Part shown: positions 56,400 through 62,029 of the stretch, one piece after another
Layout: every line of letters starts with the position of its first letter
How positions within the stretch are numbered: the first letter of the stretch is position 1
Source: Natrinema gelatinilyticum
GTDB taxonomy: Archaea > Halobacteriota > Halobacteria > Halobacteriales > Natrialbaceae
Assembly (NCBI RefSeq): GCF_024266705.1
Contig: NZ_CP100756.1
Span: forward strand, 930,001 to 994,000
Direction: 5' to 3'
Length of the DNA stretch: 64,000 nt
Notes under the pieces: generated by a model
What the model was told of the DNA's origin: nothing
The model's database searches: none
The model's input: only the letters and a program-made list of their open reading frames with translations
Program-made: the position numbers and the translations under genes

Positions 56400-56480
56400 A
56401 TGCGGTCTGCTGTAACGATGTACCGGTGCACCCACAGGACTGTCGCGGCTGCTCCAGAACTGACGTTCAGCAGTCCGTAT
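56400..56480 (+). repeat. 81-nt hairpin-forming repeat, copy B
   Basis: Matches copy A (39235-39315, reverse strand) at 69 of 81 positions. The outer arms TGCGGTCTGCTGTAACG and CGTTCAGCAGTCCGTA pair with one bulge. Similarity extends more weakly to a shared GGGGTTCGAT about 80 bases further. The differences between copies are conservative in one reading frame (for example Y/F, M/L, A/T), so a short peptide is an alternative to an RNA hairpin. Confidence 0.55.
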
Positions 56481-56590
56481 CAGTCGGGAGCAGCGATCGG
56501 CCACTCGAGTGAGCAGTCCGGATCGATGCGGGCGCTCACGGGGTTCGATGCCGCCGACCGCGAAAAAACGAACGTAGTTCGCAGTACACC

Positions 56591-56728
56591 TTAGCAACCG
56601 GTTTCCGCACAGGACATCGTTAGTGGTCCCTCCTCGCCGAGTGCCAGTGTCGTGAGCATCGGGGAGGCGTTCGCACGTTCTTCGAGGTCTTCGACGAAAT
56701 GCACATCATCCGTGTTGTCTACGGACAT
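56591..56728 (-). CDS. Graspetide (plesiocin-type) precursor peptide
   Basis: A 45-residue peptide not long enough for routine gene calling. The acidic leader contains DDVHFVEDLEERA (an amphipathic F-x-x-x-L-E helix reminiscent of graspetide leaders). The core reads PMLTTLALGEEGP, with TTLALGEE at residues 26-33 matching the TTxxxxEE motif of plesiocin-group graspetides, in which the two Thr are ester-linked to the two Glu. A tail LTMSCAETGC with two Cys ends the peptide. A TATA box 28 bases before the ATG indicates a leaderless transcript. Divergent from an ATP-grasp ligase gene 262 bases away. Motif and context are seen; the modification is inferred. Confidence 0.75.
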   Translation of the reverse strand: MSVDNTDDVHFVEDLEERANASPMLTTLALGEEGPLTMSCAETGC

Positions 56729-56750
56729 ACAGGATGGCGGACAACGGCCA

Positions 56751-56760
56751 CAAATATTAA
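56751..56760 (-). promoter_or_regulatory. TATA box of the graspetide precursor gene
   Basis: TTAATATTTG on the minus strand, preceded by the purine-rich BRE-like AGAAAGC, is centred 28 bases before the ATG at 56728. This predicts a leaderless mRNA, and no Shine-Dalgarno sequence is present. Confidence 0.6.
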
Positions 56761-56957
56761 GCTTTCTACACGTTAATATATGTCCGCCCGTATCAGCACC
56801 CCAATACCAGCGGTCACTATTGTATTCCCCACGAAAATTCATCGGCTGTCACCCTCGTGAATGGCTCTAATCGGGACAACGCAGGCACATCGGAATGATG
56901 CCCGACGCTTCACGGGCCGTATTTCCAGTGAGATATACCTATACAATTCGTCTCTGG

Positions 56958-56967
56958 AATTATATAG
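56958..56967 (+). promoter_or_regulatory. TATA box of the ATP-grasp ligase gene
   Basis: TTATATAG at 56960-56967 lies 27-28 bases before ATG 56991, marking that ATG as the native leaderless start. It supports treating the frame change downstream of it as a frameshift rather than a later start. Confidence 0.6.
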
Positions 56968-56990
56968 TTGATCGAGAGAATAATGTCGTA

Positions 56991-57933
56991 ATGGATGTCC
57001 TGGTAATCGGCCCGAACGCGGACCCGCAACCCGCAGGTCGACGTTGTGACGCGGGAGCTCGCGTCATGTGGTGTCGAAACGGTCCTGTGGGACTCGTCGT
57101 CCTGGCCCGGAGCGACGCCAGCGACGGTCAGGCAGATGGCAGACGAAACGCGGATTTCCATCGACGATACCGGTGCGCTTCTCGGCGAGTGCCACACGAT
57201 TTACTTGCGACGGCTCGGCCTCGATCCCCGCCATCCGGAGTTCGAGACTGACTTCGAGGAGCGACCGCTGTCGGTGATCAACCAGTTACGCGAGTATCGC
57301 GGTCTCCTCCTCTCGGCCATCAGGCACCTCCAGGACAACGGTGTACGGGTAATCAACCCACCCGACGTTCTCGGCATTCACAGCCTCAAACCCTGGCAAC
57401 TCTCGAGGCTCGCGGCGGCCGGGGTTCCGGTACCGGAGACCTGCTCGACCAACGATCCGGCCGAAGTGCGGGCCTTTGCGGACCGCGTCGAGAACGTTAT
57501 CTACAAGCCGATCGGTGGTGGCGGCCACGCACATCACCTCGAGAGCGTCGATCTCGACGACGACCGACTCTCGCGGCTCGCGAACTCTCCGGTTCAGTTT
57601 CAAGAGCGCATCGACGGGAACGACGTTCGCGTGTTCGTCGTCGACGGGGAGGTCGTCGCCGCGGCTCGCATCGTCTCGGACGCACTCGATTACCGAAGCG
57701 AACGACACGACGTCGAACGAATCGGACTGGAATCGCTCGATCCCGAGATCGAACGGGCGGCATGCCGTGCGGCCGACCAGCTCGGCCTGCCGTTTACCGG
57801 CGTCGACGTGGTCAATGCGGCCGACCGCTTCGTCGTCCTCGAAGCGAACCCGTCACCGATGTTCGCCACGTTCGACGAACTCGCCGGGACGAACGTTGCG
57901 GGCGAACTCGCGGGGTTCCTCGCCGACCCATGA
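56991..57933 (+). CDS. ATP-grasp peptide ligase (graspetide macrocyclase candidate), 5' frameshift
   Basis: RimK-like ATP-grasp enzyme of about 310 residues if intact. The start MDVLVIGPNADPQ is in one frame and the rest (VDVVTRELASCGVETVLWD onward) is in another. The junction holds CCGCAACCCGCAGG (57024-57037), and removing 7 bases joins the frames perfectly. ATP-grasp motifs are present: NVIYKPIGGGGHAHH, VQFQERIDGNDVRVFVVDGE and FVVLEANPSPMFATF (metal-binding E and N). If translated from GTG 57046 it would lack the first strand of the pre-ATP-grasp domain. It overlaps the M50 gene by 4 bases. Expected to form ester or amide links in the adjacent precursor. Confidence 0.75.
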
Positions 57934-58850
57934 CGACGAGCAGCGATGGCGAATCCGATGCCGATCGAGCGCACGATGGGGGACACATCCGCCACCACTT
58001 CGGATACACCTGGGGCGAGACTGACGGGATGGTCTGGCTCTGGAACGACGGCGGTAACTACAAGCGCATCGATCCCGCATTCCGGGAGCCTCTCCGCGCC
58101 CTCGCCCGCGGTGAGCGAGACCCCTCGGCAGCCGATCCCGCCGTTCTCGAGGCGATCATTGTGCTGGCTGCGGACGGGTATCTCGAGCCCGGCGGCGAGA
58201 TACGGCGACTCGAGACGCCCGCGGACATTCAGCTGTGGCCGCGACTCGTCGCGACCGGAGTGGTGACGTTCCTTCTCTGTGCGCTGCTCGGTGCCCAGTG
58301 GGAGACGATCTGGAGCTCGCCCAACTCGACCGGGAAGACGGTCGTCCTCGTGCCGTTTTTCGTCGGCGCGACGCTCCTGCACGAATTGGGCCACGTAGTT
58401 GCCAGTCGTTCCTATTTCGAGCCGTCGATCTCGATCGGGCGACTGAACGGGGTCATTCCGGCGGTGATCACGCAGACCAGAGACGCCTGGCAGTGTCCGC
58501 GCAACGTCCGAATCTGGATTAGCCTCGCCGGACCGGTCGTCGATATCGTCGTGACGCTGGGGCTGGCGATCGCATTACTGCTGTTTCCCGGCTACAGCGT
58601 CCTCAGTTCGTGTATTCTCGTCCAGCTGTTCCGACTCCTGTTCGTCCTCAATCCGCTCATCGACGGCGACGGCTACTGGCTGTTCGTCGACGTGTTCGGG
58701 ACCCACAATCTTCGAAACCACGCGTTCAGGGATTTGAAACGCGGGCGTCCGACCCCGAAGGCGGCGTTCGCGCTCACGATCGTCGTCTTCACCGGCTGGT
58801 TCGTCGCCGCGAGCGGGTACTTCCTCGGCCACACACTGGGTATACTCTAA
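57930..58850 (+). CDS. M50-type membrane metallopeptidase with N-terminal PqqD/RRE-like domain
   Basis: A 306-residue protein. Residues ~20-90 (FGYTWGETDGMVWLWNDGGN, YKRIDPAFREPLRALARGE, LEAIIVLAADGYLEPGG) have the strand-turn-three-helix look of PqqD/RiPP recognition elements. About six transmembrane helices follow. The zinc motif is HELGHVVASR near residue 150 and the third ligand region is LNPLIDGDGYWLFVD near 240, as in peptide-maturation M50 proteases such as YydH. The start overlaps the ligase stop (ATGA). Inferred role: recognise the precursor, then cleave or export the modified peptide. The RRE call needs a structure-based search. Confidence 0.7.
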   Translation: MTTSSDGESDADRAHDGGHIRHHFGYTWGETDGMVWLWNDGGNYKRIDPAFREPLRALARGERDPSAADPAVLEAIIVLAADGYLEPGGEIRRLETPADIQLWPRLVATGVVTFLLCALLGAQWETIWSSPNSTGKTVVLVPFFVGATLLHELGHVVASRSYFEPSISIGRLNGVIPAVITQTRDAWQCPRNVRIWISLAGPVVDIVVTLGLAIALLLFPGYSVLSSCILVQLFRLLFVLNPLIDGDGYWLFVDVFGTHNLRNHAFRDLKRGRPTPKAAFALTIVVFTGWFVAASGYFLGHTLGIL

Positions 58851-60123: not shown

Positions 60124-60854
60124 ATCGGGATGTATACGCCACGTCGGGTATCTATTTCGATACGTCGCAGACGTGTATCTAAAATGTGAAGACAACCACA
60201 CTCGAGGTCTACAGACTCAACAGCGGCGGCTCCGAGGTCGAGCCTCCGGAACAGATCGACGATTGCCTCGCGGTCGCGGGCCGGATCGACGTCGAGCGCA
60301 GCGGCGAGGAGGTCCGCTCCGTCGGGTCCTTCGAGCGGAAGGAGGCCGCCGGATAGCACGTAGGCGTCGGCGGCCGGCCAGACGGCAAGGTGGGCTTCGG
60401 CGGCGATGCTTGCGGTCGCGGCCGCAGTGTCGTCGCTCTCGGAAGCGGTGGTCGAATCGATCGGATACGCGACCCCGAAGACGGTGAGATGCCCCACGAC
60501 GCCGTCGGGTCGGTCGATATACTCGCTTGCGCGTTCGCCGCAGACAGTGATGTCGTCGCGCTCGATGGTATCGACGAACTGGTCGTGAGCAGTGGGGACG
60601 GCGACCTCAAGCGCGTCGGCGGCCGAGAGACCGATCGTCTCGAGAGAAGGGGTCACGCGGACGTCGACGGTGAACAGCGACCGTGCCGGGACGTCATAGT
60701 CGGCGCAGAGTCGATCGAGAGCGTCGGCGGTCGGCCGATGTTCGAAGACCGTCGTCTCGGTGGTGATCGTTGCCAGAGAGAGGGTCCGATCGTCGATTCG
60801 ACGGCCGACGTGGTGCCAGTCGTCGGCGACGGCGGGTGGCAGGTCGATAGCCAT
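59967..60854 (-). CDS. Haloarchaeal hypothetical protein, promoter displaced by an IS element and apparent stop loss
   Basis: The ATG at 60854 begins MAIDLPPAVADDWHHVGRRI. The acidic coding pattern holds for about 220 codons, to roughly ESVDLE near 60190. After that, codon use turns atypical (TGT GGT TGT CTT CAC ATT TTA) and the frame runs through the promoter and 157 bases of the next gene to 59967. The native stop was probably lost, perhaps a TGA changed to TGT. The ATGGCT start is one half of a 6-bp duplication flanking the IS630 element, which now separates the gene from its likely upstream operon partner, the symporter. Family unknown. Confidence 0.55.
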   Translation of the reverse strand: MAIDLPPAVADDWHHVGRRIDDRTLSLATITTETTVFEHRPTADALDRLCADYDVPARSLFTVDVRVTPSLETIGLSAADALEVAVPTAHDQFVDTIERDDITVCGERASEYIDRPDGVVGHLTVFGVAYPIDSTTASESDDTAAATASIAAEAHLAVWPAADAYVLSGGLLPLEGPDGADLLAAALDVDPARDREAIVDLFRRLDLGAAAVESVDLECGCLHILDTRLRRIEIDTRRGVYIPIWLGTAGTTTRSLRRPASSSVWSCSSSEAPANWSDTRCSDRFRSGKIRYSCR

Positions 60855-62029
60855 CGGCGCGTCGTAATGATCAAGATAACTTTTGCAAATATGGACTGAG
60901 GAATTGATCGATCCAGGACTTGGCAAATCCGAGTCGATCGGTAAGGGTGTCGAAGAGACGGCGAGCGAGAGTTCGGAACGCGCTCTCGCTCGCCACCACG
61001 ATTGGCGAGGCAGTGCGTTTGAGTACTTTCCAGACCTGTTCAATCGGGTTGAGATGCGGTGAGCCGACCGGAAGAAAGATGAGATCAATACCGAGTTGAT
61101 GTGCGCGCTTGCGCGTGTGTTCACAGATGTGAGACGAGAAGTTATCCAAAACGAGCAGAATCCGTGTTCCCGGATTCTGCTCGCGGACTTGCTCCAATAG
61201 CGCACAGATGTTCTCTTTCGATTGATCTTCAGGGAACGTCAGGACACTTTCGCCGGTGAGCGTATAGCATCCGACCGCTGGTTCGTCAAGCTTCACCAGC
61301 GGTCGTTCCAGTGTCGGATCATCAACGTACCACAGTCGATGCGAATTGTCATATGGTTGTGGATGCGAAGCATCACAAAAACCGACGACAGTTCCCCCAT
61401 CCGTGCAAATATCGTCGTCGAGGACCCATCCTTCGTCCTCATCATCAGGACGCTTGTTATGTGCCGTCTCTGTCTCCTCGTCGAACGCGTCTGCGACGCG
61501 TTCTTCGAGGATTTCATCTGCGTTTTCTGGCCGAGAGGGGCGCTTTGGACGTGGTTTAGCGTAGGACAGTCCGAGATTCCGGAGGAATCGACCGAGATAA
61601 TCCGGATGGTACTCTACACCGAACTCTTCGTCCAAGAGCTGATGAACTTCCTGTGCTTTCCAGGGTTGCCCCTCCCGGAGAAGTTCTAAAAGACGCTCTT
61701 GTTCCTCGTCACCGAGCTTCGGGGGCCTTCCGCCCCCGAAGTTCGGTGTCAACTGACCAAGTCCGCCATCGTTCCATCGACGCGCCCAGCGACTTCCAGT
61801 CGACGCAGATTTGCCAACGTCGTCGGCTGCTTCCTCGTACGTTGCTCCCTTGTAGAGACGTTTGACAAAGGTGAGTCGCTTGATGATCTTTGGATCGTCT
61901 GCTTCGTCCAGCAGCCGATCCAACTCCTGCTCACTTAGATGACGAACAAGATCGCCTCGCCGGTCTCCTCCCATCACTCGCCCGTCTCAGTCTATGCCCA
62001 TAACTTCCGTTACTCATTATGACGCGCCG
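60855..62029 (-). mobile_element. IS630-family insertion sequence
   Basis: A 1175-bp element with terminal inverted repeats CGGCGCGTCGTAATGA (left) and CGGCGCGTCATAATGA (right, reverse strand), one mismatch in 16. It is flanked by the direct repeat AGCCAT (60849-60854 and 62030-62035). It encodes a single transposase. IS630 elements normally duplicate TA, so the 6-bp repeat is unexpected. Confidence 0.85.
60871..61974 (-). CDS. IS630-family transposase
   Basis: About 367 residues. The N-terminal helix-turn-helix/winged-helix part (TYEEAADDVGKSASTGSRWA, then GGGRPPKLGDEEQERLLELL) binds DNA. The DDE domain includes VVGFCDASHPQPYDN (~203), ILLVLDNFSSH (~275) and SPHLNPIEQVWKVLKR (~310), the usual IS630 D-D-E arrangement. 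The frame is intact, so the element may be active. ATG 61974 is used; a GTG directly precedes it. Confidence 0.9.
   Translation of the reverse strand: MGGDRRGDLVRHLSEQELDRLLDEADDPKIIKRLTFVKRLYKGATYEEAADDVGKSASTGSRWARRWNDGGLGQLTPNFGGGRPPKLGDEEQERLLELLREGQPWKAQEVHQLLDEEFGVEYHPDYLGRFLRNLGLSYAKPRPKRPSRPENADEILEERVADAFDEETETAHNKRPDDEDEGWVLDDDICTDGGTVVGFCDASHPQPYDNSHRLWYVDDPTLERPLVKLDEPAVGCYTLTGESVLTFPEDQSKENICALLEQVREQNPGTRILLVLDNFSSHICEHTRKRAHQLGIDLIFLPVGSPHLNPIEQVWKVLKRTASPIVVASESAFRTLARRLFDTLTDRLGFAKSWIDQFLSPYLQKLS

Follow-up and report, generated by a model that had tools for sequence, protein, structure and literature searches.

A probable haloarchaeal relative of the plesiocin gene cluster with a second, cysteine-containing core module

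Among the graspetides, peptides whose side chains a ligase joins into ester or amide rings, the bacterial plesiocin has several core repeats, and we know of no M50 protease gene that accompanies it. Protease inhibition has been reported for characterised graspetides in a survey of the class (PMC8939145), the main text of which contains none of the strings 'halo', 'M50' and 'euryarch'. Passages of a further study (PMC13097080) describe a DFR motif as critical for graspetide synthetases. For archaea, a mining study of ribosomally synthesised and post-translationally modified peptides (RiPPs) lists YcaO, radical SAM, lanthi- and lassopeptide types, and no word in its main text begins with 'grasp' (PMC12144867). 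No description of an archaeal graspetide was found in the titles, abstract starts and passages that made up the literature searched, which leaves room for a prior mention. Here we describe a locus of Natrinema gelatinilyticum (assembly GCF_024266705.1) located at 56591 to 58850 of the window, by which we mean the whole 64,000-nucleotide stretch that was analysed (positions 930,001 to 994,000 of contig NZ_CP100756.1, which is 3.66 Mb in size). The locus encodes a short precursor peptide, an ATP-grasp ligase and an M50 membrane protease. We consider it likely, with a probability of roughly 0.85, that the locus is related to the plesiocin gene cluster and is a haloarchaeal version of it, in which these three proteins would together make ester-ringed peptides.

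The precursor peptide gene lies on the minus strand at 56591..56728, with the coding sequence running from 56728 to 56594 and the stop codon at 56593-56591. Its 45-residue product (MSVDNTDDVHFVEDLEERANASPMLTTLALGEEGPLTMSCAETGC) carries the canonical plesiocin motif TTLALGEE at residues 26-33 (56630..56653, minus strand), as a first-pass annotation of the window, made from the sequence alone, had pointed out. The motif by itself was rejected as evidence, since TTxxxxEE occurs twice in the six frames of the window (111,886 residues in segments of at least 30). While the motif alone proves little, the 45-residue open reading frame (ORF) gains its significance because it is conserved. Between the nearest relative and the window precursor there are six synonymous and two nonsynonymous codon changes, equivalent to a dN of 0.020 and a dS of 0.260. 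Within 12 aligned precursors H10, F11, E13, L15, E16, E17, R18, N20, A21, T26, T27, G31 and E32 are invariant, and the core ends with EE in seven and with EC in five. The small ORF is a conserved gene.

A profile built from the 12 precursors was searched against PDB sequences, and residues 14-38 of PsnA2 were the first of two listed matches, with a weak E-value of 0.26. The matched PsnA2 peptide (FIEDLGKVTGGKGGPYTTLAIGEE) was co-crystallised with PsnB (7drm). In this alignment the HFVEDL leader is placed against FIEDL of PsnA2 and TTLALGEE against TTLAIGEE, and the leader Phe and core Thr are separated by a distance of 16 in PsnA2 and of 15 in the window precursor. The invariant residues and the FIEDL alignment together mark VHFVEDLEER (residues 9-18; 56675..56704, minus strand) as the probable leader recognition segment. 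The single window peptide had no match among PDB sequences, and neither the search of seven precursors against Pfam nor that of the window precursor against Pfam and NCBIfam returned a match.

The gene facing the precursor is located on the plus strand at 56991..57933, with a frame-shifted 5' end and a main open frame of 295 residues that begins with GTG at 57046 and extends to 57933. It had been read as an ATP-grasp enzyme and is one, with PsnB (7drm) as its best match among PDB sequences (E 1.2e-42), followed at a distance by 9bou (5.4e-12). An AlphaFold2 model of the intact homologue P0121 (predicted local distance difference test score, pLDDT, 95.7) was compared with solved structures using Foldseek. 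PsnB chains took ranks 1-15, with a best E-value of 1.1e-31 and a template modelling score of 0.88 for 7drm_A, and PruB came next at 1.6e-21. Among solved structures the ligase is closest to PsnB by both sequence and fold, so the kinship with plesiocin suggested in the first-pass annotation is supported from two sides by the ligase and, weakly in terms of E-value, by the precursor profile. Where other graspetide synthetases have the DFR motif, the window ligase reads DYR. In an alignment of 54 ligases the first 30 rows, which are the close ones, comprise 29 with DYR and one with DLR, and the other 24 rows have DFR (12), DYR (7), SFK (4) and TFK (1). DYR is a conservative variant of the catalytic DFR motif, and on this point we count the ligase with the graspetide synthetases. 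Close archaeal ligases group together in a tree of 62 rows, many of which are from metagenomes. A bacterial origin of the ligase is not established by this tree, in which the deep splits are weakly supported.

Each of the 12 genomes in which a ligase was found at E <= 1e-100 has precursor, ligase and M50 genes together. This set is composed of nine genomes from a search of 149 relatives and eight from a search of 391 genomes of Halobacteria, with five present in both. The small ORF, on whose retention in relatives the proposal of a precursor depended, is kept beside the homologous ATP-grasp and M50 genes in each of the 12. Among the 149 relatives, ligase homologues at E <= 1e-30 were found in 12 genomes. 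The precursor adjoins the ligase in all nine with E <= 1e-100, and no TTxxxxEE peptide is located within 1.5 kb of the weaker ligases of G097, G128 and G143. Three further precursor-bearing genomes (G220, G325 and G397) were obtained through class-wide searches. Within the 391 genomes, 15 harbor a ligase at E <= 1e-40 and eight at E <= 1e-100. The peptide profile (E <= 1e-3) matched 10 genomes, including all eight of the latter and none of the seven with more distant ligases. With eight of eight, and 10 in 391, the hypergeometric value for this co-occurrence is 3.6e-15 when kinship is ignored. Peptide matches without a ligase were a degraded copy in G028 and a weak hit in G040 (E 4.7e-4), which was dismissed because the core is absent.

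Three gene arrangements were seen. The peptide gene either diverges from the ligase gene, precedes it in the same orientation (G397) or follows the M50 gene (G220 and G325). An M50 gene was detected beside the ligase in 12 of 12 precursor-bearing genomes. When ORFs of at least 100 residues were compared between nine loci, shorter ORFs being outside the comparison, the ligase recurred in nine and the M50 gene in eight. An HFX_2341-like gene recurred in seven, valS in six, a long ORF in five and a few others in three to five, all of which are flanks or antisense frames. A conserved exporter or immunity gene was not established in the cassette by this comparison, in which the recurrent flanks were not each excluded as pathway genes.

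Peptides with an HFVEDL or HFIEN leader were also observed near more distant ligases, at L040 7234-7356 (minus strand), L132 343-561 (plus strand) and L041 7586-7723 (plus strand). Their cores are very different (TPITWFGG; TYYTGGCIAYC) and TTxxxxEE is absent from them. G128 likewise has short peptides in which an HFVED or HFIEN leader is combined with other cores. It is possible that such peptides represent further product types. In Halorussus and a related genome (L134/L139, L051 and L052) two ATP-grasp ligase frames are located close together on one strand, and in L134, L051 and L052 an M50 match lies on the strand opposite the paired frames.

Following TTLALGEE, the window precursor ends with a second module, LTMSCAETGC (residues 36-45; 56594..56623, minus strand), a degenerate repeat containing two Cys. 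Precursor homologues numbered 125 in a search of 5.8 billion proteins, with mostly metagenomic hosts. Module counts refer to those 56 of the 120 listed homologues that carry the leader pattern, the 64 left out including the precursors of locus L046 (HFVADL), and to one sequence (P0019) re-registered by eye from the V-T of the script reading to TT. A C-x-ETGC module is present in 36 of the 56, CPEK (GECPEKC or AECPEKC) in seven and neither in 13. The second module has the form xTxxCxETGC, in which C5, E7, T8, G9 and C10 are constant because they define the set. In P0001 the two modules, TTMALGEEG and TTMACFETG, have six of nine residues in common. Position 1 is Thr or Ser in 45 of 48 modules with an acidic residue at position 8 and Thr in 13 of 36 modules with Thr at position 8, a contrast with a Fisher value of 2e-8 that, being calculated from related sequences, is not a true probability. 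Position 2 is Thr or Ser in all 36 C-x-ETGC modules and in all 48 modules with an acidic position 8. Relaxation of position 1 with retention of position 2 is the pattern expected from loss of the outer ring and retention of the inner ring. The xTxxCxETGC module therefore resembles a plesiocin repeat that has degenerated, keeping the inner Thr/Glu pair, losing the outer pair and gaining two Cys.

The modules appear to behave as exchangeable units, since P0052 contains the second module alone and one precursor of L046 has the order reversed (ITQACYETGC then TTFAIGEE). L046 is a locus from a metagenome-assembled genome with three precursors beside one ligase, the others consisting of one with the second module only and one of another type. 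The product had been proposed to be a single bicyclic hairpin. The word 'single' probably falls short, given that the TTxxxxEE module is followed by a second one that contains Cys and in which the inner Thr/Glu pair is conserved.

The M50 gene is located on the plus strand at 57930..58850, and its ATG at 57930 overlaps the ligase stop codon (ATGA). HExxH and GDGY are invariant in 33 aligned M50 proteins, corresponding to H151, E152, H155 and D247. In NCBIfam the protein matched daptide_HExxH (NF041824, 2.5e-16) and the YydH/LiaK epipeptide family (NF058609, 4.2e-9), both below the curated cut-offs. With VIA-align the fold of the M50 model matched RseP, SpoIVFB and S2P, and the N-terminal domain matched TbiB1 weakly; other folds missing from this result are not thereby excluded. 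A Foldseek search of the model against PDB gave no significant match. Motifs and modelled fold point to a site-2-protease-like membrane metalloprotease, and the overlapping M50 peptidase of the first-pass annotation stands in this respect. A PqqD-like N-terminus had also been ascribed to it; the PqqD Pfam domain was found in none of the 33 proteins. The weak TbiB1 match suggests that the N-terminal domain (about residues 22-87) may be a leader-binding RiPP recognition element (RRE).

Taken as a pathway, the PsnB-like ligase would bind the conserved HFVEDL leader of the precursor and link side chains of Thr and Glu through ester bonds. For module 1 (TTxxxxEE) two nested Thr-Glu esters are predicted, as in plesiocin. 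In module 2 (xTxxCxETGC), with only the inner Thr-Glu pair left, one ester would form and the two Cys would likely form a disulfide across it. The M50 protease with its predicted RRE may then cleave off the leader within the membrane or at its surface, close to the conserved NA between leader and core, and may aid release of the product. By analogy with characterised graspetides the product would most likely inhibit proteases. A more specific proposal, which we put forward tentatively and at slightly less than even odds, is that of a haloarchaeal graspetide with two chemistries. One PsnB-like ligase would read exchangeable beads, namely TTxxxxEE, xTxxCxETGC with a disulfide replacing the outer ester, and a third type, GECPEKC. 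An RRE-guided site-2-type protease would free the product, and beads would be gained, dropped and reordered, as in the reversed precursor of L046.

Both the ligase and the bond it forms could be read differently. The ligase carries the RimK Pfam domain, and its best NCBIfam row is TIGR00768 (rimK_fam, 1.3e-28, below its cut-off), slightly above TIGR04187. An enzyme of RimK type would extend the peptide, or some other protein, with amino acids such as Glu, in which case the peptide would serve as a scaffold and not as a macrocycle precursor. M50 proteases are also known to serve pearlins, for which, according to passages of PMC10885120, a scaffold peptide carries the amino acid while it is modified. 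However, RimK rows trail PsnB in the PDB sequence search by about 33 orders of magnitude and are far behind it in the fold search as well, and both leader and TTxxxxEE core match PsnA2, so we regard an amino-acid ligase as very improbable. Another bond type, such as a Glu-Cys thioester or a lactam with Cys as a ring atom, at least in the C-x-ETGC and GECPEKC modules, also seems unlikely to us. Cys does replace the second Glu in seven of 56 precursors in which both Thr are kept, and the ETGC module always has two Cys, although by definition of the set. Thioesters alone, on the other hand, would not need the Thr or Ser found at position 2 of every ETGC module (36 of 36). To our knowledge there is no thioester-forming graspetide synthetase, which we count against this alternative.

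A further reading concerns this strain only and is compatible with the plesiocin kinship of the family. It holds that the window locus is a decaying remnant, with a dead ligase and with precursor and protease awaiting loss, and we think this somewhat more probable than not. The ATG of the ligase at 56991 and the open frame from the GTG at 57046 are in different frames. In alignment with the nearest relative, the frame is seen to shift at a short tandem duplication near 57020-57040, consistent with earlier mention of a 'repaired' ligase. The part that stays open does not cover the first strand and some of the first helix of the P0121 model. Because the frame is broken at the 5' end, the strain probably makes no product and the pathway is likely silent here. 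P0121, a near-identical database protein (294 of 295 residues over the shared part), is intact, which argues that the break is either an assembly error or a recent change at the level of the strain. Precursor and M50 genes are intact in the window, and a short tandem duplication might revert; both of these points weigh against decay.

The distribution within the genus favors loss. A full precursor is found in only three of 29 same-genus genomes (G000, G018 and G003). G028 contains a degraded copy adjacent to valS (L218 3666-3761, minus strand), with no ligase match in the genome and no credible M50 gene within the surrounding 12 kb, and is a visible loss intermediate. The other 25 genomes have no peptide match below E 0.1, and no remnant was found in 59 loci (with flanks of about 1.5 kb) and five larger regions, which do not span every gap between valS and the regulator. 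A few tblastn rows in those regions (E 0.016-0.05, about 30% identity, mostly within valS) were taken as chance. Here and in G018 the cassette has valS on one side and an HFX_2341-like gene on the other. The same holds for G073, which belongs to another genus, except that an extra ORF is present beside valS; the locus of G003 is rearranged. Recent insertion as a mobile cassette is not favored, because other genera share the valS and HFX_2341-like flanks, some of them with another long ORF between valS and the cassette. This history fits old presence with frequent loss.

TATA-like elements are located about 28 nt 5' of the precursor ATG (56753..56760, minus strand; AATATTAA, conserved with respect to the nearest relative) and about 28 nt 5' of the ligase ATG at 56991 (56960..56967, plus strand). 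Both are putative promoter elements, and the spacing of the former is consistent with leaderless transcripts. Directly 3' of the precursor gene, at 56400-56510, is an interspersed intergenic repeat of about 80-110 bases. It has at least 40 further matches on two contigs of the genome with 74-88% identity, 40 of 264 candidates having been scored, and one locus matches on both strands. An ORF at 60871-61977 (minus strand) resembles an IS630-type transposase by eye. It has no match in the loci L031-L033 of relatives, of which L031 and L032 do have counterparts of the neighboring ORF 60209-60900.

If the proposed pathway is correct, ester-ringed and possibly protease-inhibiting peptides would extend to a domain of life about whose signalling and antagonism there is little knowledge so far. 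The family offers intact natural ligase homologues, short precursors and a series of modules (one bead, two beads, reversed) with which to ask how one synthetase reads different cores. The relaxation of the outer Thr jointly with loss of the outer Glu would amount to a natural mutagenesis experiment on the ring topology of plesiocin.

Archaeal lanthipeptides are likewise haloarchaeal RiPPs, yet as described in PMC12144867 they depend on LanM chemistry, with enzymes unrelated to those of the window. The HExxH metalloproteases of the YydH/LiaK epipeptide and daptide systems (NF058609, NF041824) are also RiPP-linked proteases of M50 type, whereas the window protein falls below their curated cut-offs, has an ATP-grasp partner and has a predicted RRE-like N-terminal domain. 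Closer in organization is a plesiocin-like operon of Metabacillus malikii (L050), in which precursor, ligase and an overlapping M50 gene form one operon. Unlike the window system it is bacterial, its leader is LFIEELEVRQSS, and it has three TTxxxxEE cores and no ETGC module. Plesiocin itself (PsnA2/PsnB; PDB 7drm-7drp) resembles the window system in ligase sequence and fold, in the FIEDL-type leader and in the TTxxxxEE core. The window precursor does not have several TTxxxxEE repeats, which are a trait of plesiocin rather than of the graspetide class. Instead, the system is archaeal, with one canonical module and an extra, degenerate C-x-ETGC module, a VHFVEDLEER-x-NA leader and an adjacent M50 gene.
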